In this document: piece by piece, positions 1-10,519 of the stretch
Position numbering within the stretch: position 1 is the first letter of the stretch
Layout: every line of letters starts with the position of its first letter
DNA from: Ktedonobacter sp. 13_1_20CM_4_53_11
GTDB lineage: Bacteria > Chloroflexota > Ktedonobacteria > Ktedonobacterales > Ktedonobacteraceae
Assembly (NCBI GenBank): GCA_001919995.1
Contig: MNIY01000134.1
Location: forward strand, 1 to 10,519
Length of the DNA: 10,519 nt
Reading direction: 5' to 3'
Translations under genes and position numbers: made by a program
Notes under the pieces: model-generated
What the model was told of the DNA's origin: nothing
The model's database searches: none
The model's input: the letters and a program-made list of their open reading frames with translations, nothing else

Positions 1-911
1 TCCAGGCATTCTCGCCTGACGCTGCCCAGGAAGCGTTCACACACAGCATTAGCTCGTGGGGTTCGGTACGGCGTTCGAAGGACTTTGATGCCACTCGTGA
101 TTGCTACGCGTGCGAAATGCGGGCCGAATTTACGGTCGTTATCCCGGATCAGATATTTTGGCCCTTCTCCATACGGAGTCGCTTCTCGCAGTTGTTGTGC
201 CACCCACAGATCAGTTGGAGAGCGTGTCACATTCACATGGATCACCTTGCGCGATTGCAATTCGACAATGAAGAAGGCAAAAAGTGGACGAAAAAAGAGA
301 TCCGTCACCTGCAGGAAATCGCAGGCCCATATCTCTGCCGCATGGTTGCGCAGGAACGTTTTCCAGGTCTGTCCACTCAGCCGTTTGTGGCGGATGGGTC
401 TCATATATTTCTGAATTGTTCGTTTACTCACCCGAATATCGAGCTTGAGAAGCTCACCACGAATGCGCTCCGCTCCCCAGAGCCGATTGTTTGCGGCCAT
501 CTCCTTGATCAAGCTGATCGTCTCTGGCGAGAGCTTCGGCTTTCTCGCATGTGCCTTCGATTTGCGCTTCCAGAACAGGCGGAAAAGCTCACGGTGCCAG
601 CGTAGGAGCGTCTCTGGCTGGACAAGGAACAGAGCCTGTTTCCAGGTTCGGACCATCTTGGCAAGGAGCACCAAAAGAAGCCGATCCGTCTTCCGATAGG
701 TTGGTCGCTTGGCCTGTCGATGTAGGATGATCAGTTGCTGTCGTAAGAGCGCATTTTCTGCCAATAGTTCGGCTTTGCCTCGCGTCAGATCGGCGAACGT
801 GCCGAGCACAAAGGAAGTTGTCGACGGTTTGATCCAACGCAAAACGTGTTCTTGAAGCGTATGGAAGCAAGAAGAGACACGTTGCTTGATCGGGAAAAAT
901 AGACGCAGCAC
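1..911 (-). CDS. IS transposase, integrase catalytic core (rve, DDE) type, 3' end cut by window
   Basis: This transposase cuts and joins the ends of its own insertion sequence. About 303 codons are visible and the frame is open to the left edge. Key residues match an rve/RNase H-like DDE core: D198 in WACDFLQ, D257 in LIRDND and E292 in ANAVCERF, with 34 residues between the last two acids. The ending FLGSVRRECLD is typical of integrase-type transposases. Residues 46-66 hold a Leu-rich heptad segment (KAELLAENALLRQQL) that could be a coiled coil. Residues around 140-170 (RLWGAERIRGELLKL, VSKRTIQKYMR) are a helix-turn-helix region. I chose GTG at 911 because AAGAAGAGG lies 8 nt upstream and a promoter lies further up. 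An in-frame stop at 1014-1016 bounds it upstream. A single-ORF layout argues against a classical two-frame IS3 element. It appears intact within the window. Confidence 0.9.
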   Translation of the reverse strand, partial: MLRLFFPIKQRVSSCFHTLQEHVLRWIKPSTTSFVLGTFADLTRGKAELLAENALLRQQLIILHRQAKRPTYRKTDRLLLVLLAKMVRTWKQALFLVQPETLLRWHRELFRLFWKRKSKAHARKPKLSPETISLIKEMAANNRLWGAERIRGELLKLDIRVSKRTIQKYMRPIRHKRLSGQTWKTFLRNHAAEIWACDFLQVTDLFFRPLFAFFIVELQSRKVIHVNVTRSPTDLWVAQQLREATPYGEGPKYLIRDNDRKFGPHFARVAITSGIKVLRTPYRTPRANAVCERFLGSVRRECL

Positions 912-1244: not shown

Positions 1245-1947
1245 CTATGGCACCACAGATGTGGTGTCATCCAGGCACCCATCAGCGAGGCAGCGAGCGA
1301 CCTGCGCAATCTTCCAGACTCCCTCCTCCACATCGAGTGTAAACTGAAAGTCCCGCTCATAGTCGTCCGTATATCCCTTGGGTCCAATCGTCTTGAGCAA
1401 CAGGAACCCAGTCGCCGACGTCTCGCTCACATTGTCCACCCTACAGTGGACAATCGTGATGCGAACAAGGAAAGGCGGGGGTGTTGCCCGCTCCTTTTGC
1501 AGGGCCTTGGCGTACTGCCCCCAGGCCGTATCCAGATCGTGTCGGTCGATAGCATCACAGAACGTAGTAAGCACCTGAGCCGTTGAGGGAGTCAGGGATG
1601 GAATGGGCGTCGGCGAAGGAGATGCTGAGAGAGAAGGAGCCAACGAGGGAAACGGCGTCGGCGAAGGCGAAAGCCCCCCAGAAGACGAAACTGCTGTCGA
1701 CGAGGCCACAGGCGCGCCGATGGGAGCGGCATTCGCTCCGTGAAACAAGACCACTCCCGCACTGAGCACAAGGAAGAGTGAGAGGCATACCACCAGCGTG
1801 AGTCGGGTCCAGAGCCATTGGTGCCACGATGAGAGATGAACCTCGGGGCTGCGCAGGGCAAGTATGAGCACCAGCGCTGCCAGAATGATGATCCCCCCCT
1901 CCAATCTGCCAGATTGGGTCGCCCAGACTCTCCATGATCACGTTCAT
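1245..1947 (-). pseudogene. Membrane-anchored NTF2-like protein, frameshifted in a G7 tract (paralog of the gene at 1966-2634)
   Basis: The last gene of the operon is split over two frames. From ATG at 1947 (AAGAAGAG 9-10 nt upstream) it reads MNVIMESLGDPIWQIGGG, matching the start of the neighbouring paralog (MNILLNTLSDPVWQV). At 1893-1899 the coding strand has seven Gs. With six, the frame would run into GIIILAALVLILAL and on to the stop at 1245, about 233 residues in total. The restored protein has two membrane segments, a Pro/Ser/Thr linker (for example SPSPTPIPSLTPS) and a C-terminal domain starting VLTTFCDAI, which resembles SnoaL/NTF2-like folds. Four cysteines (FC, HC, RC, GC) align with those of the paralog. 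Without a frame repair the only anchored product would need a TTG start inside the G tract. Sequencing error, slippage and true loss are all possible. Function unknown. Confidence 0.75.
1893..1899. repeat. Seven-base homopolymer (C7 on plus, G7 on coding strand)
   Basis: This tract lies in codons 17-19 of the last operon gene, exactly where the reading frame breaks. One base fewer restores an open frame through the whole gene. Such tracts are slippage-prone in cells and error-prone in sequencing. Confidence 0.85.
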
Positions 1948-1965
1948 CGGCACACACTCTTCTTT

Positions 1966-2634
1966 CTAGCCCCAACTGACCGCAAAGCAGCCTTCCGAGA
2001 GGATATCGCAGACGCCTGTAATCTTCCAGGCCTGGTCCTCCACACCCATCGTCAACCGATAGTCCACATCCCCACTGCGTCTAAACCGGTCGGTATACCC
2101 ATTCGCAAACGTCAGCGTCAGGACGGAGAGTGCTGAGGGATCCCCACTCTGATCAGGAATGATACAGCGGGTAAACTTCCTCCATGCAGCGAACGTCTCA
2201 GGTTGCGGATGCGTGTGTTGCAAGGAATTCGCGTACTGGTTCCAGGCCGTCTGGTAATCCTGGCTGGTGATGGCATCGCAGAACGTCATCAGGACCTGCG
2301 TAATGGAACGGGCGAGCCGAGGAGTCGGTGTGGGGGTTGGGATGGATGTCGGTGAAGGTGTCGGCGACGGAGTTGGTACGGGTGATGGTGCCGTGCTGCT
2401 TGTCCTCAGCGGTGCAGCGTCAGGCAGATGCAGCGCGACCGCCACCCCGCTCATCAGCAGAAGGGTAGCAAGCCACACTCGCAGAACGGTCAGCGTGTCC
2501 CGACGCTTCTGCTGTTCGGAGGCATGCACATCACGGGTGCGCACGGCCACGATCAACACTGGTGCGGCGAGCGTGATGACGAGCGCAAGCACCTGCCAGA
2601 CTGGATCGCTGAGCGTGTTCAGGAGGATGTTCAT
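1966..2634 (-). CDS. Membrane-anchored protein with Pro/Ser/Thr linker and extracytoplasmic NTF2-like domain
   Basis: The protein has 222 residues and I assign no biochemical function. Residues about 12-31 and 48-68 are hydrophobic. The loop between them is rich in Arg and Lys (VRTRDVHASEQQKRRD), which by the positive-inside rule puts both the N-terminus and the large C-terminal part outside the cell. Residues about 75-105 are a low-complexity linker of PTPSPTPSPT type. The C-terminal domain from about 110 (VLMTFCDAITSQDYQTAW...) resembles SnoaL/NTF2-like proteins, with four cysteines that could form two disulfides. The ATG at 2634 overlaps the stop of the upstream MFS gene by 4 bp (ATGA), and GGAGGAG lies 9 nt upstream, so translation is probably coupled. 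The 18-nt gap to the downstream paralog marks a tandem duplication. Chloroflexota carry many proteins of this build; binding of a ligand or metal is only a guess. Confidence 0.8.
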   Translation of the reverse strand: MNILLNTLSDPVWQVLALVITLAAPVLIVAVRTRDVHASEQQKRRDTLTVLRVWLATLLLMSGVAVALHLPDAAPLRTSSTAPSPVPTPSPTPSPTSIPTPTPTPRLARSITQVLMTFCDAITSQDYQTAWNQYANSLQHTHPQPETFAAWRKFTRCIIPDQSGDPSALSVLTLTFANGYTDRFRRSGDVDYRLTMGVEDQAWKITGVCDILSEGCFAVSWG

Positions 2635-4013
2635 CGGTACCTGCTCCTCCCGTCATCTGTCTGCGTACGCGCTCCATCTTTTGGCGCATGCGTGACCTCC
2701 CCTGCACGAACTGGCTCCTGCGTTGGAGCGCACTGTTCCACTTCCAGGTGGACATGCCGAAACACCATCCAGAGGGAGCAGTCATAGGCCGATTTGAGCA
2801 TCCCAGCCAGGATGAAGGGAAGCCCGAGAACGAGCAGGGGCCCTTGCAAGAGCAGACCGGAAAAGACGGGGCTGCTTGCCGAGCCCACGCTGCGTGCCAG
2901 GGAGGTGACGCTGGCGGCAGCCGTGCGCTCCTGCGGGTCCACCAGGGCCATCGTGTAGGCCTGACGAGTCGGCACATCCATCTGCGAGCGCGCCTGGCGA
3001 ACGAGCAGCAGTACCGCCGCGATGGGAAAGGTGGGCGCGAAGGCCACCAGGGCCAGCAGGATATTCGATGGGAGATGGGTAAACACCATCGTGTTGAGCA
3101 GACCGAAACGCCGGGCGAGCGGCGCCGCCGCCAGGAACGAGAGCGCCGAGAGGAGGTTCGCCCCGAAGAACAGGGCCGAGAGCGTCGTGAGCGGAACGCC
3201 GAAGCGCAGATGGAAGAAGAGCGCCATCAGGCTCTGCACCACCAGCCCTCCGGCCAGCGCATCCACGCTGAAGAGTGCACTCAGTCGCCACACCATGCCG
3301 CGTGAACGTCCCAACGGAGGCGCAAGCCGCTCCCAGAGGGGCTTTCCCTCGATGGGGGCACGCTCTGGTGCTTCCACCGCTCCGGAGAGCCGCGGGGCAA
3401 GCCAGGCCACAACGAGGGCCAGCACTGCATACGCCCCGAACAGAAGACGGATGCCCGTGATGAGAGGCAGATGCAGACGTAGCAGCAGATCGGGTAACCC
3501 GGCCACCAGCGCCCCCACAGCGACACTGAGCGAGGCAACCAGGTTATAGCGGGCGAACAGGGCCGTCCGGCGCGAAGGCGCTGTGACCTGTGCGATCATC
3601 GCCTGGTCAACGGGCAGAAAAGGAGCAGTCTCGGAGGCCGTCGTGCCAAGTGTCCCGAAGAACGCCGCCACCAGCAGCGCGGGATAGCTCGTCACCAGTC
3701 CAAAGACCACGCCCGTCCCGGCCATAAGGAGAGAAAGCAGCACCAGCATGCGCCGCCGTCCCCAGGTGTCAGTCATCAGGCCAACCACGTAGGTTCCGAT
3801 CATATCGCCTATCAGGGAGACGGTGATCAGGATACCGATAGCCGCAGGTGAAAAGCCCTCATCTGCAAGCGCCACGCCCAAGAGCACGGCCAGTAACCCG
3901 TAGGCAAGTGAGCGCAGTCCACGCATCACCAGGATGAGCTGGGTGCTGCGACGGCGCTCGCTCGTGTCGACTGAGAGAGGGTCTGCTCCCCCTTTTGGTC
4001 TCGACTTTCTCAT
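2631..4013 (-). CDS. Major facilitator superfamily (MFS) transporter
   Basis: A 460-residue inner-membrane transporter with about 12 predicted hydrophobic segments, the usual MFS size. The loop 2-3 signature (motif A) is visible at residues 78-90 as GLMTDTWGRRRML. A second conserved stretch, QMDVPTRQAYTMALV followed by ERTAAASVTSLARS, sits between segments 10 and 11 and is common in one branch of drug/anion-type MFS proteins. The last ~45 residues (after FRHVHLEVEQC) are a hydrophilic cytoplasmic tail. The ATG at 4013 is preceded by GAGCGAGGGAA. The gene follows the second ChrB-C gene by 31 nt and overlaps the next gene by 4 bp. The substrate cannot be read from sequence. The neighbourhood suggests export of chromate, another oxyanion or a related toxic compound. 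That is inference; the family includes many drug exporters. Confidence 0.9.
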   Translation of the reverse strand: MRKSRPKGGADPLSVDTSERRRSTQLILVMRGLRSLAYGLLAVLLGVALADEGFSPAAIGILITVSLIGDMIGTYVVGLMTDTWGRRRMLVLLSLLMAGTGVVFGLVTSYPALLVAAFFGTLGTTASETAPFLPVDQAMIAQVTAPSRRTALFARYNLVASLSVAVGALVAGLPDLLLRLHLPLITGIRLLFGAYAVLALVVAWLAPRLSGAVEAPERAPIEGKPLWERLAPPLGRSRGMVWRLSALFSVDALAGGLVVQSLMALFFHLRFGVPLTTLSALFFGANLLSALSFLAAAPLARRFGLLNTMVFTHLPSNILLALVAFAPTFPIAAVLLLVRQARSQMDVPTRQAYTMALVDPQERTAAASVTSLARSVGSASSPVFSGLLLQGPLLVLGLPFILAGMLKSAYDCSLWMVFRHVHLEVEQCAPTQEPVRAGEVTHAPKDGARTQTDDGRSRYR

Positions 4014-4044
4014 TTCCCTCGCTCCGCATCAGGCGAACCTCGCC

Positions 4045-4509
4045 TCACGAGACAAAGTCGCCATGCGGCTTGCCCTGGCGCACCATTTCCTGGCAATAGG
4101 CATAGAGGGCATCATAGACAATCCACTCAGCGGCATTCTGGGCGTTATCATCCTGGAAACCAAGATGGCGGAAGCCCTCGGCGATGGCCTCTAGTCCGGG
4201 TCCCTCGGGCTGATTCCAGAGCGTATTATCGGTATCTGCGCCATTCACGATCTTGCCAAGCAAGACCAGCGCTGAGTCGCTCGTCAAGTGGTACTTCTTG
4301 AGGATGGCCTCAAACGAACACTCTTTGCCGTGATGGCCCAGTTCCACATTTTTCACGTCGTAGGGGATCGCCCCTTCGCGCTCGGCCACCTCCAGCACCT
4401 GGTTGGTTGGCACAAAGAGAAACTCGGCATCTTTGTCCACAAATTTTTTAATGAGCCAGGGGCAGGCCACGCGGTCTACCTTGACATGCTCGCGGGTAAT
4501 CCATTTCAT
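4045..4509 (-). CDS. Second ChrB C-terminal domain protein (chromate resistance, PF09828-type), stand-alone
   Basis: A 154-residue cytoplasmic protein that is almost entirely the C-terminal domain of ChrB. Visible hallmarks are VDRVACPWLI at residues 11-20 (with C16), AEFLFVP at 28-34 and ELGHHGKECSF at 56-66 with a His pair and C64. These are the likely metal- or substrate-binding residues of the family, though I do not know their assigned roles. The domain is paralogous to the protein at 5901-6326: both start MKW, share DR-AC-WLI and HH...C-F, and differ by short insertions. The ATG at 4509 has AAGAAGGAGA 8 nt upstream. It lies 77 nt downstream of the propeller gene and 31 nt upstream of the MFS gene, suggesting a ChrB-C/MFS functional pair. 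In Proteobacteria this domain is normally fused to a PaaX-like N-terminal half. Confidence 0.88.
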   Translation of the reverse strand: MKWITREHVKVDRVACPWLIKKFVDKDAEFLFVPTNQVLEVAEREGAIPYDVKNVELGHHGKECSFEAILKKYHLTSDSALVLLGKIVNGADTDNTLWNQPEGPGLEAIAEGFRHLGFQDDNAQNAAEWIVYDALYAYCQEMVRQGKPHGDFVS

Positions 4510-4586
4510 GGTCAGGTTCTCCTTCTTCTTACGAGTAAGAGACGTTCAAACAACAAAGAAACGCGACATCCGAGCGCTCGTTCCGT

Positions 4587-5498
4587 TTACGGCACCTCGC
4601 TTTCCTCATAGACCGCGGTGCGACAACTGGGCAGAAAGACGTAGAGACGTTGCCGCCTAGCATCGTAGGCCGTCGTGTGCGCTCCCACCTCCGTAGAAAT
4701 CTGCTCATCGACCACCATCGTCTGCGTGTTCAGCACATCGATGACGCCAGGATCCTCAATAGCCACGTAGAGATGTGATGTCTGGTGGTTGTGCCAGATG
4801 GCATCTGGGGCACCCGCAATCGGTACCTTTGCCAGTTCGCTCCCGGTAGAGGTGTCCAGCGTTACGACACTGCCTCCATCGCAGGCGACGAACGCCCGAC
4901 GACCATCCTGGTCGAGGTCTAATCCATGCGGCCCAACACCCGAGACCGAGAACTGGCCGACCAACGCGCCTGTCGAGGCCGAGAGCACTGCCACCACCGC
5001 CGGTTCGCGGATATTGACGAGAAAACGCTCCCCTGCCGCGTGATAGACCGCCCAGCGTGGCCGACCGGGCAACGGTACTGACGCGATCACTCGGCCGACC
5101 TGCAGGTCAATGAGCCGTGCGGTATTGTCGTGCACATCAGCCACCAGCAGGTGTTTACGCAGTGGGTCAAAGGCCAGACCATTGGGCCGTGATCCTACAG
5201 CAACAGTTCGTATCACCGTAGCGCTCATGGCGTCGATAACCAGAAGCTTGCCCACGCCACGCGCTGCTGCAAAGATCAGTGCGCCGTCCTGTGCCGCCAG
5301 CACGCCGCTGGCCTCTGGACAGTCAGGAATCGTCACCAGGTGGCCCAGGCGCTCCCCATCGACAACCTCGACAGTGGAGACTTTGGTATTGGCGATAAAG
5401 ACGTAACCGTTGGAGAGCGACACATCGCCGTGATCGAAGTCTCCCTCCGGGTGGAACGGGAGGTCAATATATTGGCGCAAGACCAGTGTGCTTGCCAT
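4587..5498 (-). CDS. Cytoplasmic seven-bladed beta-propeller (YncE / YVTN-repeat type)
   Basis: About 303 residues with seven repeated units of roughly 40 residues. The unit pattern is a hydrophobic strand such as LLVADV or AFVACD, then a polar turn, then VIDVLNTQT-like and VGSRPNGLAF-like stretches, typical of YVTN/YncE propellers. No signal peptide or membrane segment is visible, so it should act in the cytoplasm. Many YncE relatives are periplasmic. I choose the second ATG (5498) because GGAG lies 7 nt upstream of it; the ATG at 5504 sits only one base after the same GGAGC. It starts 22 nt after the broken membrane gene and precedes the second ChrB-C gene by 77 nt. Propellers bind proteins or small molecules, and some (SMP-30-like) are enzymes. 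I see no catalytic signature and assign no reaction. Its place in a chromate operon is unusual. Confidence 0.82.
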   Translation of the reverse strand: MASTLVLRQYIDLPFHPEGDFDHGDVSLSNGYVFIANTKVSTVEVVDGERLGHLVTIPDCPEASGVLAAQDGALIFAAARGVGKLLVIDAMSATVIRTVAVGSRPNGLAFDPLRKHLLVADVHDNTARLIDLQVGRVIASVPLPGRPRWAVYHAAGERFLVNIREPAVVAVLSASTGALVGQFSVSGVGPHGLDLDQDGRRAFVACDGGSVVTLDTSTGSELAKVPIAGAPDAIWHNHQTSHLYVAIEDPGVIDVLNTQTMVVDEQISTEVGAHTTAYDARRQRLYVFLPSCRTAVYEESEVP

Positions 5499-5520
5499 TG
5501 ACATGCTCCTTCTTTACGAG

Positions 5521-5867
5521 CTAGATTGTGACCACATTGACGACAAAGGAGACCAGGGCGAGCAGCACCCGCGCCTGCTCGAAGCGAATGGGGTCGGCAG
5601 GACGGCGGAAGGCCGCGTAAAAGCCAACAAAGAGATACGTCACCAGGGGGCACAGCACGTCATTGGGACTCACTGGTGGAATGGGATCGTTGTGGAGTCG
5701 CCCCGGTATTGCCCGCTGACCGCCACACCAGGACCGAGATGCCAACAACCACCGCGACCAGCAGGCAATCGACCAGCGGAAGCGCCTTGAAACGTGCGCG
5801 CAGAGCAACCAGCACCAGCAGTGAGCGCAAAGTGCACAAACGGAAAGACCGAAGGGCTCGTAGACAT
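5521..5867 (-). pseudogene. Small multi-pass membrane protein broken by two single-base frameshifts
   Basis: Three frames must be joined to read this gene. From ATG at 5867 the first frame gives MSTSPSVFPFVHFALT. Near 5815-5825 the hydrophobic sense moves to the next frame (LVLVALRARFKALPLVD, then CLLVAVVVGISVLVW). Near 5700-5715 it moves again to IPPVSPNDVLCPLVTYL, then FVGFYAAFRRPADPIRF and VLLALVSFVVNVVTI before the TAG at 5521. Both shifts are in the same direction, as if one extra base were present each time. The restored product is about 114 residues with four hydrophobic segments. I do not recognise the family. Spacing to both neighbours (33 and 22 nt) fits an operon member. Either the gene is dead or the sequence carries two insertion errors; short hydrophobicity runs out of frame could also mislead me. 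Confidence 0.6.
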
Positions 5868-5900
5868 GCTTTTCTTCTCTTCTTCTCTTGTGCGTCCTCT

Positions 5901-6326
5901 TTACGCCTGGGTTGGTTCACTGGCGAACTGCGCATAGAGGGCATCATACACGAGCCGTCCTCGTTCCAGGGCGACCAGATCACTCGGACTGACCAGGCGA
6001 ATACCCTGACAGATGACGTCCAGACCAGTTGCCGCTGGCTCCAGCATGACATCCTGCACGGTGTCAGCTTCATCCACCACGCGAGCGATACGCTGCAAGA
6101 CGGGATCATGCAAATCATACTCGCGCAGTATGGTGTAAAACGTGCAGTGCCCCCGGTGATGGGAGAGCCGCACACCGGGGATATCGAATGGCTCCGCCCC
6201 TTCAGGCAGCGGCTTGTGTCCTGCAGGCACGAAGAGAAACTCCGCCTGTGGATCAATGTATTTGGTGATCAGCCAGGCGCAGGCCATGCGGTCCACGCCC
6301 ACCTGCTCCCAGGTCACCCATTTCAT
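5901..6326 (-). CDS. chrB: ChrB C-terminal domain protein (chromate resistance, PF09828-type), split from its N-terminal half
   Basis: A 141-residue cytoplasmic protein corresponding to the C-terminal half of classical ChrB. Hallmarks are VDRMACAWLI at residues 11-20, AEFLFVP at 28-34 and RLSHHRGHCTF at 53-63, with conserved C16, H56, H57 and C61. The ATG at 6326 overlaps the stop of the ChrB N-terminal gene by 4 bp and has GAGGAGG about 8 nt upstream. The two halves are therefore translated together and probably form one complex. In Proteobacteria ChrB acts as a chromate-responsive regulator and is needed for full resistance. Which half senses chromate here is unknown. The two-ORF arrangement looks genuine rather than a frameshift, because each half has its own start and ribosome site. 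Confidence 0.9.
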   Translation of the reverse strand: MKWVTWEQVGVDRMACAWLITKYIDPQAEFLFVPAGHKPLPEGAEPFDIPGVRLSHHRGHCTFYTILREYDLHDPVLQRIARVVDEADTVQDVMLEPAATGLDVICQGIRLVSPSDLVALERGRLVYDALYAQFASEPTQA

Positions 6327-6772
6327 GAGACAAATCCTCCTCTTGCACTCATCAGTCGTTCCCTCACGTGTGTCCCCAACGCTGAGTGAAAGTAGTCCTG
6401 CGCCCGCACCTGTTGATACTTGCGGGAGAGCGCGACGAGGTCAGCATCCTCCTGCTCCACCTCGTCCAGAATTTCCTGGTAGGCGGCATCCACACGAGCC
6501 TGGAACTGCTGCACCAGCGCGTCTGCTTGCCCATTTAAGAGCAAGTGGGATTCCCACAGGTAAGCTTCTCCCCCGAGTTCGCCAATCTCCACGGCCAGCC
6601 ACTGGAACTGCTCGCGCGTCCAGGGCGTGGCAGGTAACACCCAGACGGCGTCGTGCAACAGCAGCGCCCCCAGGCGTTTGAGTTTGCGCCAGACGGCAGC
6701 CCGGCTGGCTGTGGGCTCGCGTGGGATTTTGTAAACGAGCAGCACCCACGATGTTTCCTTCGGCTTTTCCAC
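6323..6772 (-). CDS. chrB: ChrB N-terminal (PaaX-like winged-helix) domain protein, stand-alone
   Basis: A 149-residue protein equal to the N-terminal half of ChrB. The diagnostic opening is SWVLLVYKIPREPTASR followed by VWRKLKRLGALLLHDAVWVLP and a helix EQFQWLAVEIGELGGEAYLW, all characteristic of the ChrB/PaaX-related fold. The C-terminal third (AYQEILDEVEQEDADLVAL) is helical and acidic. GTG at 6772 is chosen because AGGAGG, overlapping the chrA stop codon, lies 8 nt upstream; an ATG 9 nt further upstream is out of frame. It begins 12 nt after chrA and overlaps the ChrB-C gene by 4 bp. By family knowledge it is the best candidate for the factor that binds the palindromes in front of chrA, which would make the operon self-regulated. 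That binding is inferred. (One residue run here is described in pieces; see the operator entry for its proposed site.). Confidence 0.88.
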   Translation of the reverse strand: MEKPKETSWVLLVYKIPREPTASRAAVWRKLKRLGALLLHDAVWVLPATPWTREQFQWLAVEIGELGGEAYLWESHLLLNGQADALVQQFQARVDAAYQEILDEVEQEDADLVALSRKYQQVRAQDYFHSALGTHVRERLMSARGGFVS

Positions 6773-6784
6773 GCAGCATCCCTC

Positions 6785-7894
6785 CTAGCGATGGAGCGCT
6801 GAGTACACGGCCAGGCCGATGACAGCGGCTCCCAACACGATGAACGGCTCCGGGATCTTTTTCCAGCGCCACAGGAGGACCAGCGTGGCGAGCGCCAGCG
6901 CCAGCGTGGGGATGTCCGTAATCGTGCGTCGTCCCAGCACGACGACCGCCCCGGTGATCGCGCCGATGGCGGCAGCGGTGACCCCTTGAACAAAGGCCGC
7001 GATGGCCGGGCGCTTTCCGTACTTGCGGAAGGCGGGAGCGGCGATCACCACAAACGCATAACAGGGCAGAAACGTCCCCAGGGCCGCGACACAGGCTCCG
7101 GCGAAGCCGGCCACCAGGAAGCCGATGAAGCCGGACGTAATCACCACAGGCCCCGGCGTAATCATGGCGACGGCCACCGCGTCCACGAACTGACGGTCGG
7201 TGAGCCAGTGGTGCCCCTGCACCACGCCTCCATAGAGAAAGGGGATGATAGCCAGCCCACTGCCAAAGACGAAGGCCCCGGCAAAGACAAAAAAGGTGAA
7301 GATGGTCCACAAGGTTCCGCCTGCCATTCCTCCCAGAGCCAGGAGGGCTGCCAAAGGCAGAGGCGAGAGACTCGTCACGCCGGGTTTCCCTTTGCTCCAG
7401 GACTTCCACAACGCGTGAGGAGGAGTCTTGACCAGCCAGACCAGGACACCGGCGGCGAGGAAGAGCAGCACCTGTTCGGTCTGCGTGAGGATGGTCACCG
7501 CTGCCGTCACGAGGTAGATCCCCCAGAGCAGAGGGTCACGTCCAATGGTTCTGGTCGTCAGCTTGTAGGCGAGAAACGATGGCCAGATAAAGGCCAGCCC
7601 CACCAGGGTTGCTCCCAGGATGCGAGAGCGAACATAGCCCAGGTACATCGCCAGTTGCGCAGCCAGCGGGCCCGGCGAGAGCTGGGCGAGGGCCAGTCCC
7701 TCCTGGTAATCAGCCTCGGCAATCCACTCGCGGCCCTCGACGAGATCGCGCTGCATATACCCAACCAGAGCCACCGGGCCACCGAAGCCGAGTGTCCCCA
7801 GGCGCAAGAAATAGCGCACCAACTGCCAGAGCGAAAAGGGCTCCTGCTTCGGTGTGGGTACTTCTGTTGATTCGTTCACCGGCGATGGATCCAC
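6785..7894 (-). CDS. chrA: ChrA chromate transporter (CHR family, long-chain two-domain form)
   Basis: An inner-membrane chromate transporter of the CHR superfamily (TC 2.A.51) that lowers cytoplasmic chromate. About 369 residues contain two homologous CHR domains. The N-half shows LGTLGFGGPVALVGYMQ, then EGLALAQLSPGPLAAQLA. The C-half repeats the theme with FGSGLAIIPFLYGG, then VAVAMITPGPVVITSGFIG. Around ten to eleven hydrophobic segments are visible. A run of about 50 mixed residues (KTPPHALWKSWSKGKPG) links the halves. I prefer GTG at 7894 over GTG at 7915, because AGGAGG lies 6 nt before the former; the longer form would add seven basic residues. It is the first gene of the operon, 12 nt before the ChrB-N gene, behind the promoter at 7976-8004. 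The family and function are clear. The direction and specificity (chromate versus sulfate-like oxyanions) are known for the family only. Confidence 0.95.
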   Translation of the reverse strand: MDPSPVNESTEVPTPKQEPFSLWQLVRYFLRLGTLGFGGPVALVGYMQRDLVEGREWIAEADYQEGLALAQLSPGPLAAQLAMYLGYVRSRILGATLVGLAFIWPSFLAYKLTTRTIGRDPLLWGIYLVTAAVTILTQTEQVLLFLAAGVLVWLVKTPPHALWKSWSKGKPGVTSLSPLPLAALLALGGMAGGTLWTIFTFFVFAGAFVFGSGLAIIPFLYGGVVQGHHWLTDRQFVDAVAVAMITPGPVVITSGFIGFLVAGFAGACVAALGTFLPCYAFVVIAAPAFRKYGKRPAIAAFVQGVTAAAIGAITGAVVVLGRRTITDIPTLALALATLVLLWRWKKIPEPFIVLGAAVIGLAVYSALHR

Positions 7895-7942
7895 CTGCTT
7901 CCTCCTCGCTTGCACACAGGCCTGTTGCTACTGCGTTTTATG

Positions 7943-7974
7943 ACAATAGTTGTTACTATCTGTAACCATGGTTA
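7943..7974. promoter_or_regulatory. Nested palindromes over the chrA start site, putative repressor operator
   Basis: Four overlapping dyads lie directly downstream of the predicted -10 box. They are the perfect 12-bp palindrome TAACCATGGTTA (7963-7974), GTTAC-N5-GTAAC (7952-7966), TAGT-N4-ACTA (7947-7958) and ACAA-N3-TTGT (7943-7953). The GTTAC/GTAAC half-site recurs. Placement across the expected transcription start suits a repressor released by chromate, and the ChrB N-domain protein encoded downstream is the obvious candidate. Binding is inferred; a TetR- or PadR-like regulator elsewhere would fit too. Confidence 0.6.
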
Positions 7975-7975
7975 G

Positions 7976-8004
7976 AGTATAGCTGAAGTGGCAAGGAAAT
8001 GCAA
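7976..8004 (-). promoter_or_regulatory. Putative sigma70-like promoter of the chr operon
   Basis: On the minus strand TTGCAT (8004-7999) and TATACT (7981-7976) are separated by exactly 17 bp, about 80 nt before the chrA GTG. It is the only good promoter match I see ahead of the operon, and the dyads at 7943-7974 begin right after it. The pattern is seen; use in vivo is inferred. Confidence 0.65.
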
Positions 8005-8063: not shown

Positions 8064-8626
8064 TCACGTGCAACCGGTGATTCCAAAACACTCGAGCCCA
8101 TTCCAGTTGAAGGTGCTATCTGGCTGGATGCCGAGACTGTGGTAGGCTAAGGTCACCAGCGTATGCGCCTGCAAGGGAATGGTCCGAAAGTCGCCAGAGA
8201 ACGGCTTGCCATCGACATATGCCTGCCATCCCTCGGACATATCCAGTTTGTTGGGATAGCCCAGGGATGCGAACTGCGTCTTCCAGATGTCGAGGAAATC
8301 CCCCAGGGTGAAGGAACGAACCTGTGGGGCCTCTACATGGATCACGCCATCGCTGGTATGCGTGTGCAGCCAGCACAAGCAGGAACCATCTGGTGCAATC
8401 CCGATCCCCTGGGGAACAGCGACGGCTTGCCCATCAAGGGAGAAGGACAGATGGGCATGGATGTGAAAGACGGCCTGTTCCATCTGATTACAGCAATGCC
8501 ATCAATCGCGGAATACGGCGCGCTTGCGCCTAGCTCTGTCTGGTTCTGCGGATTCGCATGGGTCTGCGCCACAACGTACAGGGAGACCGCAGCCGTGATG
8601 AGCATCACACCGATGACGACGCTCAC
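8064..8626 (-). pseudogene. Membrane-anchored 'HIHAHL' protein, frameshifted and cut at its N-terminus
   Basis: Two frames make up one protein of a family I recognise from Chloroflexota and some archaea but cannot name. The first frame runs from GTG at 8626: SVVIGVMLITAAVSLYVV is a membrane anchor, then ANPQNQTELGASAPYSAIDG. At about 8495 the sense moves to the other frame, as if one base were missing, giving CCNQMEQAVFHIHAHLSF, then CLCWLHTHTSDGVIHVEAP, FTLGDFLDIWKTQF and AYVDGKPFSGDFRTI, to the stop at 8064. The family pattern DGI-C-...-EQ...HIHAHL is restored exactly across the break. The His-rich HIHAH and HTH motifs could bind metal; this is a guess. The start has no ribosome site, and a 568-bp element begins 2 bp upstream, so the original N-terminus was probably removed. 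It lies on the same strand as the chr operon. Confidence 0.78.
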
Positions 8627-8627
8627 C

Positions 8628-8655
8628 TGTGGTGGCTACTTGGTCTATCTGTTCT
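8628..8655 (+). repeat. Left terminal inverted repeat of the 568-bp element
   Basis: It reads TGTGGTGGCTACTT then GGTCTATCTGTTCT. It differs from the right end at the fifth and the last base only. Its outer edge lies 2 bp from the first codon of the broken HIHAHL gene. Confidence 0.8.
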
Positions 8656-8673
8656 CAAAGAGGCCTTTGAGCC

Positions 8674-8982
8674 TCAATGAACAGCACGAACGACACGCCG
8701 GATCGTTTCCTGTGAGACCCCAGAGTCATCTGCAACGTTGCGCACAGATTCTTTCTTCTCAAGCACACGTTTCAACACAGTCGGCCATTCGAAAGAGGGG
8801 ATCTCATCTGCCGGGTTTCTTGGCCCGGGCCTGCGATGGTGTATCAGAGGAGGAGTGCTTCACTGAGCTTGTTCATCTTCAGTGAGAAGGTCTTGGAGCT
8901 TTTGAGACAGCTTTCCGGATGGGGCAAGGAAAAGGGGAAAAATTGGTGAGAGAGGAGCCGAAATCCGTCGGTTCCGGTGAGA
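8674..8982 (-). pseudogene. Fragment of an HTH-containing mobile-element protein with an internal stop
   Basis: A 103-codon stretch between two stops, with one further in-frame TGA at 8860-8862. The readable parts are LFLAPSGKLSQKLQDLL, then EDEQAQ-stop-STPPLIHHRRPGP, then IPSFEWPTVLKRVLEKKES and VRNVADDSGVSQETIRRVV. The last piece is a clear helix-turn-helix of the kind found in recombinases and transposon-borne regulators. There is no usable start in this frame. It lies wholly inside the 568-bp element and is probably the remains of its cargo gene or of a larger protein. Family not identified. Confidence 0.6.
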
Positions 8983-9401
8983 TTATTTATTCATCATACT
9001 ATTACTAATATAATTTTTGTTCTTTCACCTCGAAATCTCCTCCCTGTGCAGGCTCTCTTGTCTCTGCTGTCCCAAACACGCTCTTCATGGCTGCCTTGCC
9101 GATTCCTCCTCTGCATCTTCACTCAGCGCTCAGAGACCTTCAGTTCGTCCTTTTCTCTCTACATGCTCGAACAGATAGACCAAGTAGCCAGCACAAGGAG
9201 GGAACGGGAACGACTTGGAAGTGAGAAGCACCCGACGCTCCAGATCCCACTCGGCAGACGAGGGAGCCAGAGGCTTCTGCTGCCACATGTGATATACTGG
9301 AGAAAAGGACCCTTTTCCTCAGAACTGTTTTCCGAATGCGAGTTTGACCCAATGACCATCCTTCCCGACCTGCTCATTGAGCACGAAAGCCGGACCACTG
9401 A
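8983..9401. other. Stretch without a supportable gene
   Basis: The first 213 bp form the right part of the 568-bp element, including an AT-rich patch (8981-9028) with a consensus -10 hexamer TATAAT at 9009-9014 but no good -35. From 9196 to 9401 I see open frames on both strands but no family motif, no ribosome site with a sensible start, and no clear repeat. Some of it may be eroded sequence of the ISL3-like element that follows. Confidence 0.5.
9168..9195 (-). repeat. Right terminal inverted repeat of the 568-bp element
   Basis: Read inward on the minus strand from 9195 it is TGTGCTGGCTACTT then GGTCTATCTGTTCG. Its first 14 bases are identical to the IS end at 1072. Confidence 0.8.
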
Positions 9402-9703: not shown

Positions 9704-10519
9704 ATGAATCAGCTTACAGTTGCCCTGCTTCAGTTGACCTCGCAGGGCAATGACCAGGATGCCAACCAAGCCAAAGGCGAACGGTTCTGTCGCCGCGCCC
9801 AGCTCATGGGCGCCGATATCGCCCTCTTCCCCGAGCTCTGGAACGTCGGGTACACTCCGGCCAACAGCTGGCAAGGAACCGATGAACTCTGGCGCGCACC
9901 AGAGTTGTGGCCACCCGAGGAGGCAAATGCCAACGAGGTGCAGCCACAGCCTGAGGACCTCTGGGCGGACCAGGCCATCGGGCGTGATGACCCGTTCATC
10001 CTCCACTTCAGGGACCTGGCCAGGGAACTCGGCATGGCGATCGGCCTCACCTATCTGGAGAAGTGGAACAGGACACCACGCGATACGCTCTCTCTTCTCG
10101 ACCGGCATGGGGAGCTCGTGCTCACCTACGCCAAGGTCCACCTGTGTGAGTGGTCTCCTGTGGAAGCCACGCTGACCCCTGGCGACGACTTTTCCGTGTG
10201 CACCCTCGATACGGCGCAAGGCCCGCTCAAGGTCGGGGCGATGATCTGTTACGACCGCGGCTTCCCCGAGAGCGCCCGCATTCTGATGCTCAAAGGAGCT
10301 GAACTCATCCTCGTCCCCAATGCCAGCGACCTCGACCCACTGCATCTGGCCCAGTTGCGGGTACGTGCCTACGAGAACCTGGTCGCGGTGGCCATGGCCA
10401 ATTATGCGGGGGCAGGAGCGGGACATTCGGTGGCTTACGACCCGATCGGCTTCCCTGTGCATGGGGGGAAAGCCTCGTGGCGAGACACCCTCGTCGTCGA
10501 AGCTGGGGAGTGCGAAGGC
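9704..10519 (+). CDS. Carbon-nitrogen hydrolase (nitrilase superfamily), 3' end cut by window
   Basis: A cytoplasmic hydrolase of amide or nitrile C-N bonds. 272 codons are visible and the frame is still open at the right edge. The catalytic Glu-Lys-Cys triad is present: E44 in LFPELWN, K144 in TYAKVHL and C182 in MICYDRGFPE, at normal spacing. The start MNQLTVALLQLTSQ is typical, with AGGAG 8 nt before the ATG. The C-terminal part shows PNASDLDPLHLAQLRVRAYEN and the AMANYAGAGAGHS region, as in N-carbamoyl- or omega-amidase-like branches. Specificity cannot be told. Insertions around residues 50-95 (WQGTDELWRAPELWPP) resemble those of N-carbamoyl-D-amino-acid-hydrolase-like members, but weakly. 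It is on the strand opposite to the chr operon and separated from it by mobile-element debris, so a link with chromate resistance is unlikely. Confidence 0.93.
   Translation, partial: MNQLTVALLQLTSQGNDQDANQAKGERFCRRAQLMGADIALFPELWNVGYTPANSWQGTDELWRAPELWPPEEANANEVQPQPEDLWADQAIGRDDPFILHFRDLARELGMAIGLTYLEKWNRTPRDTLSLLDRHGELVLTYAKVHLCEWSPVEATLTPGDDFSVCTLDTAQGPLKVGAMICYDRGFPESARILMLKGAELILVPNASDLDPLHLAQLRVRAYENLVAVAMANYAGAGAGHSVAYDPIGFPVHGGKASWRDTLVVEAGECEG

Follow-up and report, generated by a model that had tools for sequence, protein, structure and literature searches.

Three described chr systems stand closest to the locus considered here, a minus-strand run of nine genes in a 10,519-nucleotide stretch of contig MNIY01000134.1 from Ktedonobacter sp. 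13_1_20CM_4_53_11 (this whole stretch is called the window below). The determinant of Arthrobacter sp. FB24 consists of chrJ, chrB-Cterm, chrB-Nterm, chrK, SCHR, chrB-Cterm2, chrA6 and chrL, with a split chrB whose halves overlap by 4 nt, a second ChrB C-terminal gene and the YVTN/WD40 propeller gene chrK (Henne et al., 2009, PMC2751784). All eight chr genes are induced by chromate and deletion of accessory regions lowers resistance; induction is far higher by chromate than by lead, arsenate or peroxide, to which some genes respond slightly, and chrL rises 63-fold with chromate versus 12.5-fold with peroxide (PMC2751784). In chrIBACEFONPYZ of C. metallidurans CH34, chrP encodes a major facilitator superfamily (MFS) permease, chrZ is Rmet_6194, and five of the genes are stated to be chromate-induced, no data being given (PMC2864759, 2010); the FB24 paper calls chrZ similar to chrK (PMC2751784). 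In Ochrobactrum tritici TnOtChr (chrBACF), the ChrB-regulated promoter bears an inverted repeat that overlaps part of the -10 box (Branco and Morais, 2013, PMC3817168).

The window operon shares with FB24 the split chrB with its 4-nt overlap, the second ChrB_C, the propeller and a small membrane protein gene, which in FB24 is ARTH_RS22920 and adjoins chrK. FB24 also has the palindrome described below at four sites, each at 1 mismatch. FB24 differs in having its genes on both strands, a signal sequence on ChrK, chrJ and chrL, and in lacking the MFS gene and the exported pair. The CH34 pMOL28 determinant likewise unites ChrA, ChrF, an MFS protein (chrP) and a YncE-like protein (chrZ) in one locus, but has a fused ChrB, another palindrome (TTGTAGAGATCTCTACAA) and the extra genes chrC, E, O, N and Y. 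TnOtChr is comparable in that an inverted repeat covers part of the -10 box of a ChrB-regulated promoter, whereas its ChrB is fused and its repeat is AT-rich and of unlike sequence. Ktedonobacterales bin_006 (L003) shows the window's gene order for chrB_N, chrB_C, a cytoplasmic propeller, ChrF and MFS and has the candidate operator at 1 mismatch; chrA, the small protein and the exported pair were not found there by tblastn within 9-10 kb. Most of the gene set is already known from FB24 and CH34, and the additions are the candidate operator, the join of two modules, the small-protein family and the exported pair. The accessories had been called unusual in an earlier note on this DNA, a wording that is overstated because ChrK, ChrZ, ChrP and ChrF are already in print.

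The window probably carries an efflux operon that chromate induces and a split ChrB represses. The ChrB pair would sit on a palindrome abutting the -10 box and repress the operon, ChrB_N binding the DNA and ChrB_C acting as sensor; chromate would relieve this repression, and ChrA would then export it. The cytoplasmic propeller, the ChrF-type ChrB_C and the ChrP-like MFS transporter would form a second module downstream that may add a second step of oxyanion or chromium-adduct handling and export, and two membrane-anchored exported proteins would act outside the membrane. The sequences themselves show which genes are present, the palindrome with its tie to stand-alone ChrB_N, and the customary pairing of propeller and ChrF. 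We infer the binding of ChrB_N to the palindrome, repression by that binding and the substrate, as well as the roles of the propeller, the MFS protein, the small protein and the exported pair. The features concerned are the following.

1245..1947, minus strand: exported-2, a paralog of exported-1; reading frame disrupted close to the start in the sequence as read
1966..2634, minus strand: exported-1, two N-terminal helices, P/T-rich linker, putative NTF2-like domain with conserved Cys
2631..4013, minus strand: MFS transporter, ChrP-like, 460 aa (PF07690, 3.5e-27)
4045..4509, minus strand: ChrB_C-2, ChrF-type, 154 aa (PF09828, 7e-45)
4587..5504, minus strand: YncE-like propeller, predicted cytoplasmic, 305 aa (PF21783, 5e-10); signal peptide not seen
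5521..5867, minus strand: gene for the small membrane protein, interrupted by two frame changes in the sequence as read
5901..6326, minus strand: ChrB_C-1, putative sensor half, 141 aa (PF09828, 5e-45); overlaps ChrB_N by 4 nt
6323..6772, minus strand: ChrB_N, stand-alone, putative DNA-binding half, 149 aa (PF20229, 3e-14; PF20803, 8e-7)
6785..7915, minus strand: ChrA, long-type chromate transporter, 376 aa (PF02417, 4e-65; TIGR00937, 344 bits, cut-off 172)
7946..7959, minus strand: second small inverted repeat, ATAGT-N4-ACTAT, beside the candidate operator; read by eye
7961..7976, minus strand: candidate operator, palindrome TGTAACCNNGGTTACA with 1 mismatch; shares its first base with the -10-like box
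7976..8004, minus strand: candidate promoter, -10 TATACT (7981-7976), 17-nt spacer, weak -35 TTGCAT (8004-7999); read by eye

The genes run from 7915 down to 1245 with gaps of 12, 33, 16, 77 and 31 nt, about 18 nt ahead of exported-2, and two 4-nt overlaps (ChrB_N/ChrB_C-1 and MFS/exported-1), which agrees with the 12-77 nt gaps and two overlaps given in the earlier note. Its nine same-strand genes form a real run, but only seven are intact as read, the small membrane protein and exported-2 being broken. Start, middle and end of the former lie in three different frames, and the probable start of the latter (about 1947) is out of frame with the gene body; either mutation or assembly error may account for this. 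A decaying locus, its operon no longer fully functional, would explain a small membrane protein broken twice and an exported-2 broken once, and is rather unlikely, with seven genes intact, the core included, and some of the breaks perhaps assembly errors. Between 1000 and 8700, one promoter-like site (on the plus strand) compares with 1.8 expected and seven terminator-like sites with 6.0 expected, so that no internal signal beyond chance splits the run, a possibility raised beforehand. Rfam gave no match at the gathering threshold.

A palindrome linked to stand-alone ChrB_N

The 16-bp palindrome TGTAACCNNGGTTACA was found by comparing the upstream regions of chr loci, and in the window it abuts the -10-like TATACT; the candidate promoter is not among the sites listed by a consensus promoter scan. 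The window palindrome did not occur once in 200 dinucleotide shuffles of the window. At <=1 mismatch, TGTAACCNNGGTTACA is restricted to chr loci across 70 records (596 kb), a biased set in that many records were fetched because they hold chr genes, and five mononucleotide shuffles yielded none. Two whole genomes of 5.1 Mb and 3.9 Mb each have their sole site at <=1 mismatch upstream of chrB_N. Of 47 class genomes, G005 (in a chr locus) and G039 contain exact sites, and G041 contains a match to a reversed control pattern.

The motif was first seen on five loci and then held in nine of ten newly fetched plasmid loci with stand-alone ChrB_N (L072 reached by a ChrF query, L070 by the small protein and eight by ChrB_N). 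In the final count, made at <=2 mismatches within 200 nt and with chrA, first of the operon, as the tested gene of the window, it was present upstream at 14 of 16 loci with stand-alone ChrB_N, drawn from three phyla, and at none of nine fused-ChrB loci (Fisher p 2.7e-5), the Arthrobacter, Rhodococcus and Agrobacterium loci each being related among themselves and thus not independent. The nine fused-ChrB loci show no such site anywhere in the fetched stretch, and four newly fetched ones show none even at 3 mismatches. The 17-nt spacer separating the -35-like from the -10-like box is taken up by the palindrome in L075, L078 and L080 (read by eye), a placement that would fit a repressor. Literature searches found no published operator for split-ChrB chromate regulons: the main text of the FB24 paper (PMC2751784) had none of six operator-related terms, and full-text searches for the operator half-sites with chrB or chromate returned nothing relevant.

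Two side observations concern the same regulators. L075, L078 and L080 have stand-alone ChrB_N with the same operator, next to genes for CDF, MFS or fluoride-channel proteins; neither ChrB_C nor ChrA is annotated nearby. In L007, two related palindromes GCAACG-N2-CGTTGC lie beside a fused ChrB, between ChrB (1747, minus strand) and ChrF (1903, plus strand).

The propeller, ChrF and MFS genes

ChrB_C-2, a stand-alone ChrB_C beside chr genes, is 51-55% identical to ChrF of CH34 and B. pyrrocinia, and the window MFS protein is 44% identical to CH34 ChrP and 47% to the MFS protein of Burkholderia pyrrocinia. The two adjoin each other as the earlier note described, and relatives place propeller and ChrF together. 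A propeller-alignment scan of species genome contigs gave ten loci (L001-L010), two of which come from bins that carry the names Thaumarchaeota or Nitrosocosmicus. In eight of the ten, the propeller has a ChrF-type ChrB_C no more than about 130 nt away; the distance is 7 kb in L006, and the contig of L010 begins inside the propeller. The fetched stretch includes MFS in at least five loci (L001, L003, L005, L006, L008) and ChrA in at least two (L001, L010), all such neighbour counts being lower bounds with several contigs short. L001 unites ChrB, ChrF, propeller, ChrA and MFS, and L003 and L005 hold chrB_N, chrB_C, propeller, ChrF and MFS with chrA not nearby. Since the propeller is usually paired with ChrF, the window operon reads as a join of two separable modules, ChrA/split-ChrB/small protein and then propeller/ChrF/MFS.

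The window propeller is 100% identical to a protein from the metagenome-assembled genome (MAG) Ktedonobacter sp. 13_1_20CM_3_54_15, which we take to be from a soil sample. In window-type propellers the fold starts directly, with no signal peptide (judged by eye), and identity to distant propellers is 24-30%; we take them as a putative cytoplasmic sister group of ChrK/ChrZ, with which they share a YncE-like propeller in a chr locus but not the signal sequence published for ChrK. An alignment of the window with L002-L008 (L001, which has a stop after the chosen start, L009 and L010 were left out) keeps D24, H25, D27, C62, E64, R82, N108 and R148, and also R150, W151, R166, H193, C208, D234 and H276, in 8/8 sequences. 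The distant ChrK/ChrZ type shares H193, C208, D234 and H276 in 9/11, the exceptions being two archaeal second propellers. The spacing of about 42 residues (25, 64, 108, 150, 193, 234, 276) suggests one channel-lining residue per blade.

Distant propellers were found in 67 plasmid records; five of the first seven opened lie in chr loci and two, from Rhodococcus, do not within 10 kb. Those of L070 and L077, reached by other queries, also lie in chr loci. Viral contigs held no propeller relative, and a PDB sequence search matched the propeller only to other propellers or repeat proteins.

For the MFS protein, a plasmid search at 1e-5 returned 74 records, the best near 1e-49, and the same search at 1e-40 returned none. 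Six records were chosen by MFS alone, and three lie in chr loci beside chrB and chrA (L088, L089, L092), two of these also carrying YncE; five further MFS records in chr loci were reached by chr or propeller queries and are not a fair sample. In L049 (G029), an MFS protein 72% identical to that of the window is followed by a putative WD40-like lipoprotein (by eye), in a genome without a ChrB_C match.

ChrA, the ChrB halves and alternative readings

ChrA is 57.6% identical to ChrA of CH34 pMOL28 and has two CHR domains (PF02417 in two stretches), with the GGX12VX4W and PGP motifs also present. The ChrB regulator adjoins it as separate ChrB_N and ChrB_C genes, and domain matches above curated cut-offs uphold the identities assigned earlier to ChrA, ChrB_N and both ChrB_C proteins. 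A PDB sequence search found no relative for ChrB_C-2 or ChrA. A chr-type locus serving another oxyanion (such as sulfate, selenate, vanadate or molybdate) is very unlikely; a different metal-oxyanion is considered for variant chr loci in the CH34 genome paper itself (PMC2864759), but the identity to ChrA of the CH34 chromate determinant and the chromate preference of FB24 gene induction (PMC2751784) argue for chromate.

In Ochrobactrum ChrB, the N half binds DNA (R18, R23) and the C half senses chromate (R180, R187, H229) (Branco and Morais, 2013, PMC3817168). Their putative equivalents were placed from the distance between motifs, which is 49 residues in CH34 and 50 elsewhere. ChrB_C-2 would keep all three mapped sensing residues, the R180 equivalent included.

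Several observations weigh against the reading of the run as one efflux operon under split-ChrB repression. Neither half of Ochrobactrum ChrB cloned alone gave regulation (PMC3817168). ChrB_C-1 has W at the mapped R180 in all three Ktedonobacteria copies compared (window, L003, L005), so it may not sense chromate; either another residue would replace R180 in ChrB_C-1 or ChrF would supply the sensor. One stand-alone ChrB_N locus (L074) is without the operator, and in L012 the palindrome appears only at 3 mismatches, which fails the <=2-mismatch test. The exact G039 site lies outside any chr locus, inside a rhomboid-like gene (named by eye) of a genome without ChrB_C, and looks like chance; the reversed control pattern also matches 1/47 class genomes. 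MFS relatives (E<=1e-30) occur in 21/47 class genomes and ChrB_C in 7/47, and several of the MFS relatives opened there stand without chr genes. Three of the six plasmid relatives chosen by MFS alone (L087, L090, L091) have no chr genes within 7 kb, which weakens the MFS claim: the family appears to be often, not always, a chr partner and is not chr-specific.

The same neighbourhoods bear on whether the run is two unrelated neighbours, a plain chrA-chrB operon and an independent MFS/propeller/exported operon that acts on another substrate, brought together by chance or by mobile elements. Conservation next to chrA, proposed earlier as a check, extends to the two propeller loci with ChrA and the three plasmid MFS records in chr loci but not to the rest. 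This patchy linkage, the position of ChrA in G003 about 1 Mb from its chrB-propeller-MFS block, and a transposase-like frame directly downstream of the operon speak for a chance join. The lack of an internal promoter or terminator above chance, the split chrB with propeller, ChrF and MFS in L003 and L005, the full set in L001, and CH34 and B. pyrrocinia, each with ChrA, ChrF, MFS and YncE in one locus, count against it and make it quite unlikely.

The small membrane protein, the exported pair and the flanks

The small membrane protein has relatives whose frames are intact (118-124 aa). Relatives adjoin chrA in Streptomyces mirabilis and L010, and the propeller in Arthrobacter FB24 and FW306-05-C, where FB24 is the strain whose published gene list shows no gene at this position (PMC2751784). 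The search gave 991 relatives among 7998 scored candidates, with no Pfam domain in the 120 matches listed; P0281 and P0241 have none above cut-off, and the readable piece of the window protein fits no Pfam or NCBIfam family. Among 400 phylum genomes the family occurs in one, the source genome of L010. As a proxy for linkage, contigs of equal size (>2000) among the best 120 matches listed per search were compared with a shift null: propeller and small protein coincide six times (null 0.33; 0/600 as high), exported-1 and small protein twice (null 0.32; 27/600 as high), and propeller and exported-1 never (null 0.71). The small membrane protein represents an unnamed family, found also beside chrA or chrK in Actinomycetota.

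Exported-1 and exported-2 are 36% identical and fit no Pfam or NCBIfam family. At E<=1e-3 the exported-1 family counts 153 of the 7995 proteins scored, and among the 120 matches listed a single source is named, a Ktedonobacteraceae MAG. Family members begin with two helices, followed by a P/T-rich linker and a C-terminal domain in which C119, C157 and C216 are invariant, and C209 almost invariant, across 38 aligned sequences. The exported-1 model (pLDDT 73.5; domain mostly 86-96, one block at 63) has many matches to NTF2-like folds, as the earlier reading of the pair would have it, but all are weak (best E 0.011, none at 0.001). Relatives at E<=1e-3 occur in 27/47 class genomes (best 3.1e-9); many cover the P/T-rich linker, and since some span the domain (e.g. 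57-205 or 109-207, 26-38% identity), distant relatives of it exist. Of 20 fetched exported-1 loci, a tblastn match was kept in three (L030, L034, L036), whose stretches of roughly 3 kb show no other window gene by tblastn. No relative of the pair at E<=1e-15 was found in 400 phylum genomes, a search without a positive control and so of little weight. One protein, P0232, joins an MFS piece to exported-1. With close relatives only among metagenome-type proteins and thin chr links beyond the window, the pair is the weakest link in the operon.

The flanks hold an integrase-core transposase-like frame (3-842, minus strand; Pfam below cut-off), open at the left edge and directly downstream of the operon, and a helix-turn-helix transposase-like remnant upstream (about 8650-8990, minus strand; by eye). 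A 139-aa protein without a Pfam family lies ahead of chrA (8064-8483, minus strand) and has a relative at the edge of L006, the Nitrosocosmicus stretch, that matches it at 47% over 64 residues. A carbon-nitrogen hydrolase (9704-10519, plus strand; PF00795) is open at the right edge.

Beyond the probable split-ChrB efflux operon, a broader proposal is quite possible, if short of likely: stand-alone ChrB_N proteins may be a regulator class of their own whose single operator, TGTAACCNNGGTTACA, is conserved in Chloroflexota, Actinomycetota and Alphaproteobacteria, in some cases with no ChrA, and propeller-ChrF-MFS may be a second, ChrA-independent oxyanion detoxification module in which ChrF, not ChrB_C-1, carries the intact sensing residues. 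A single palindrome offers a cheap sequence handle for finding split-ChrB chromate regulons, and the accessory genes are separated into a module testable without ChrA. The locus also points to a conserved small membrane protein family passed over by the FB24 gene list.

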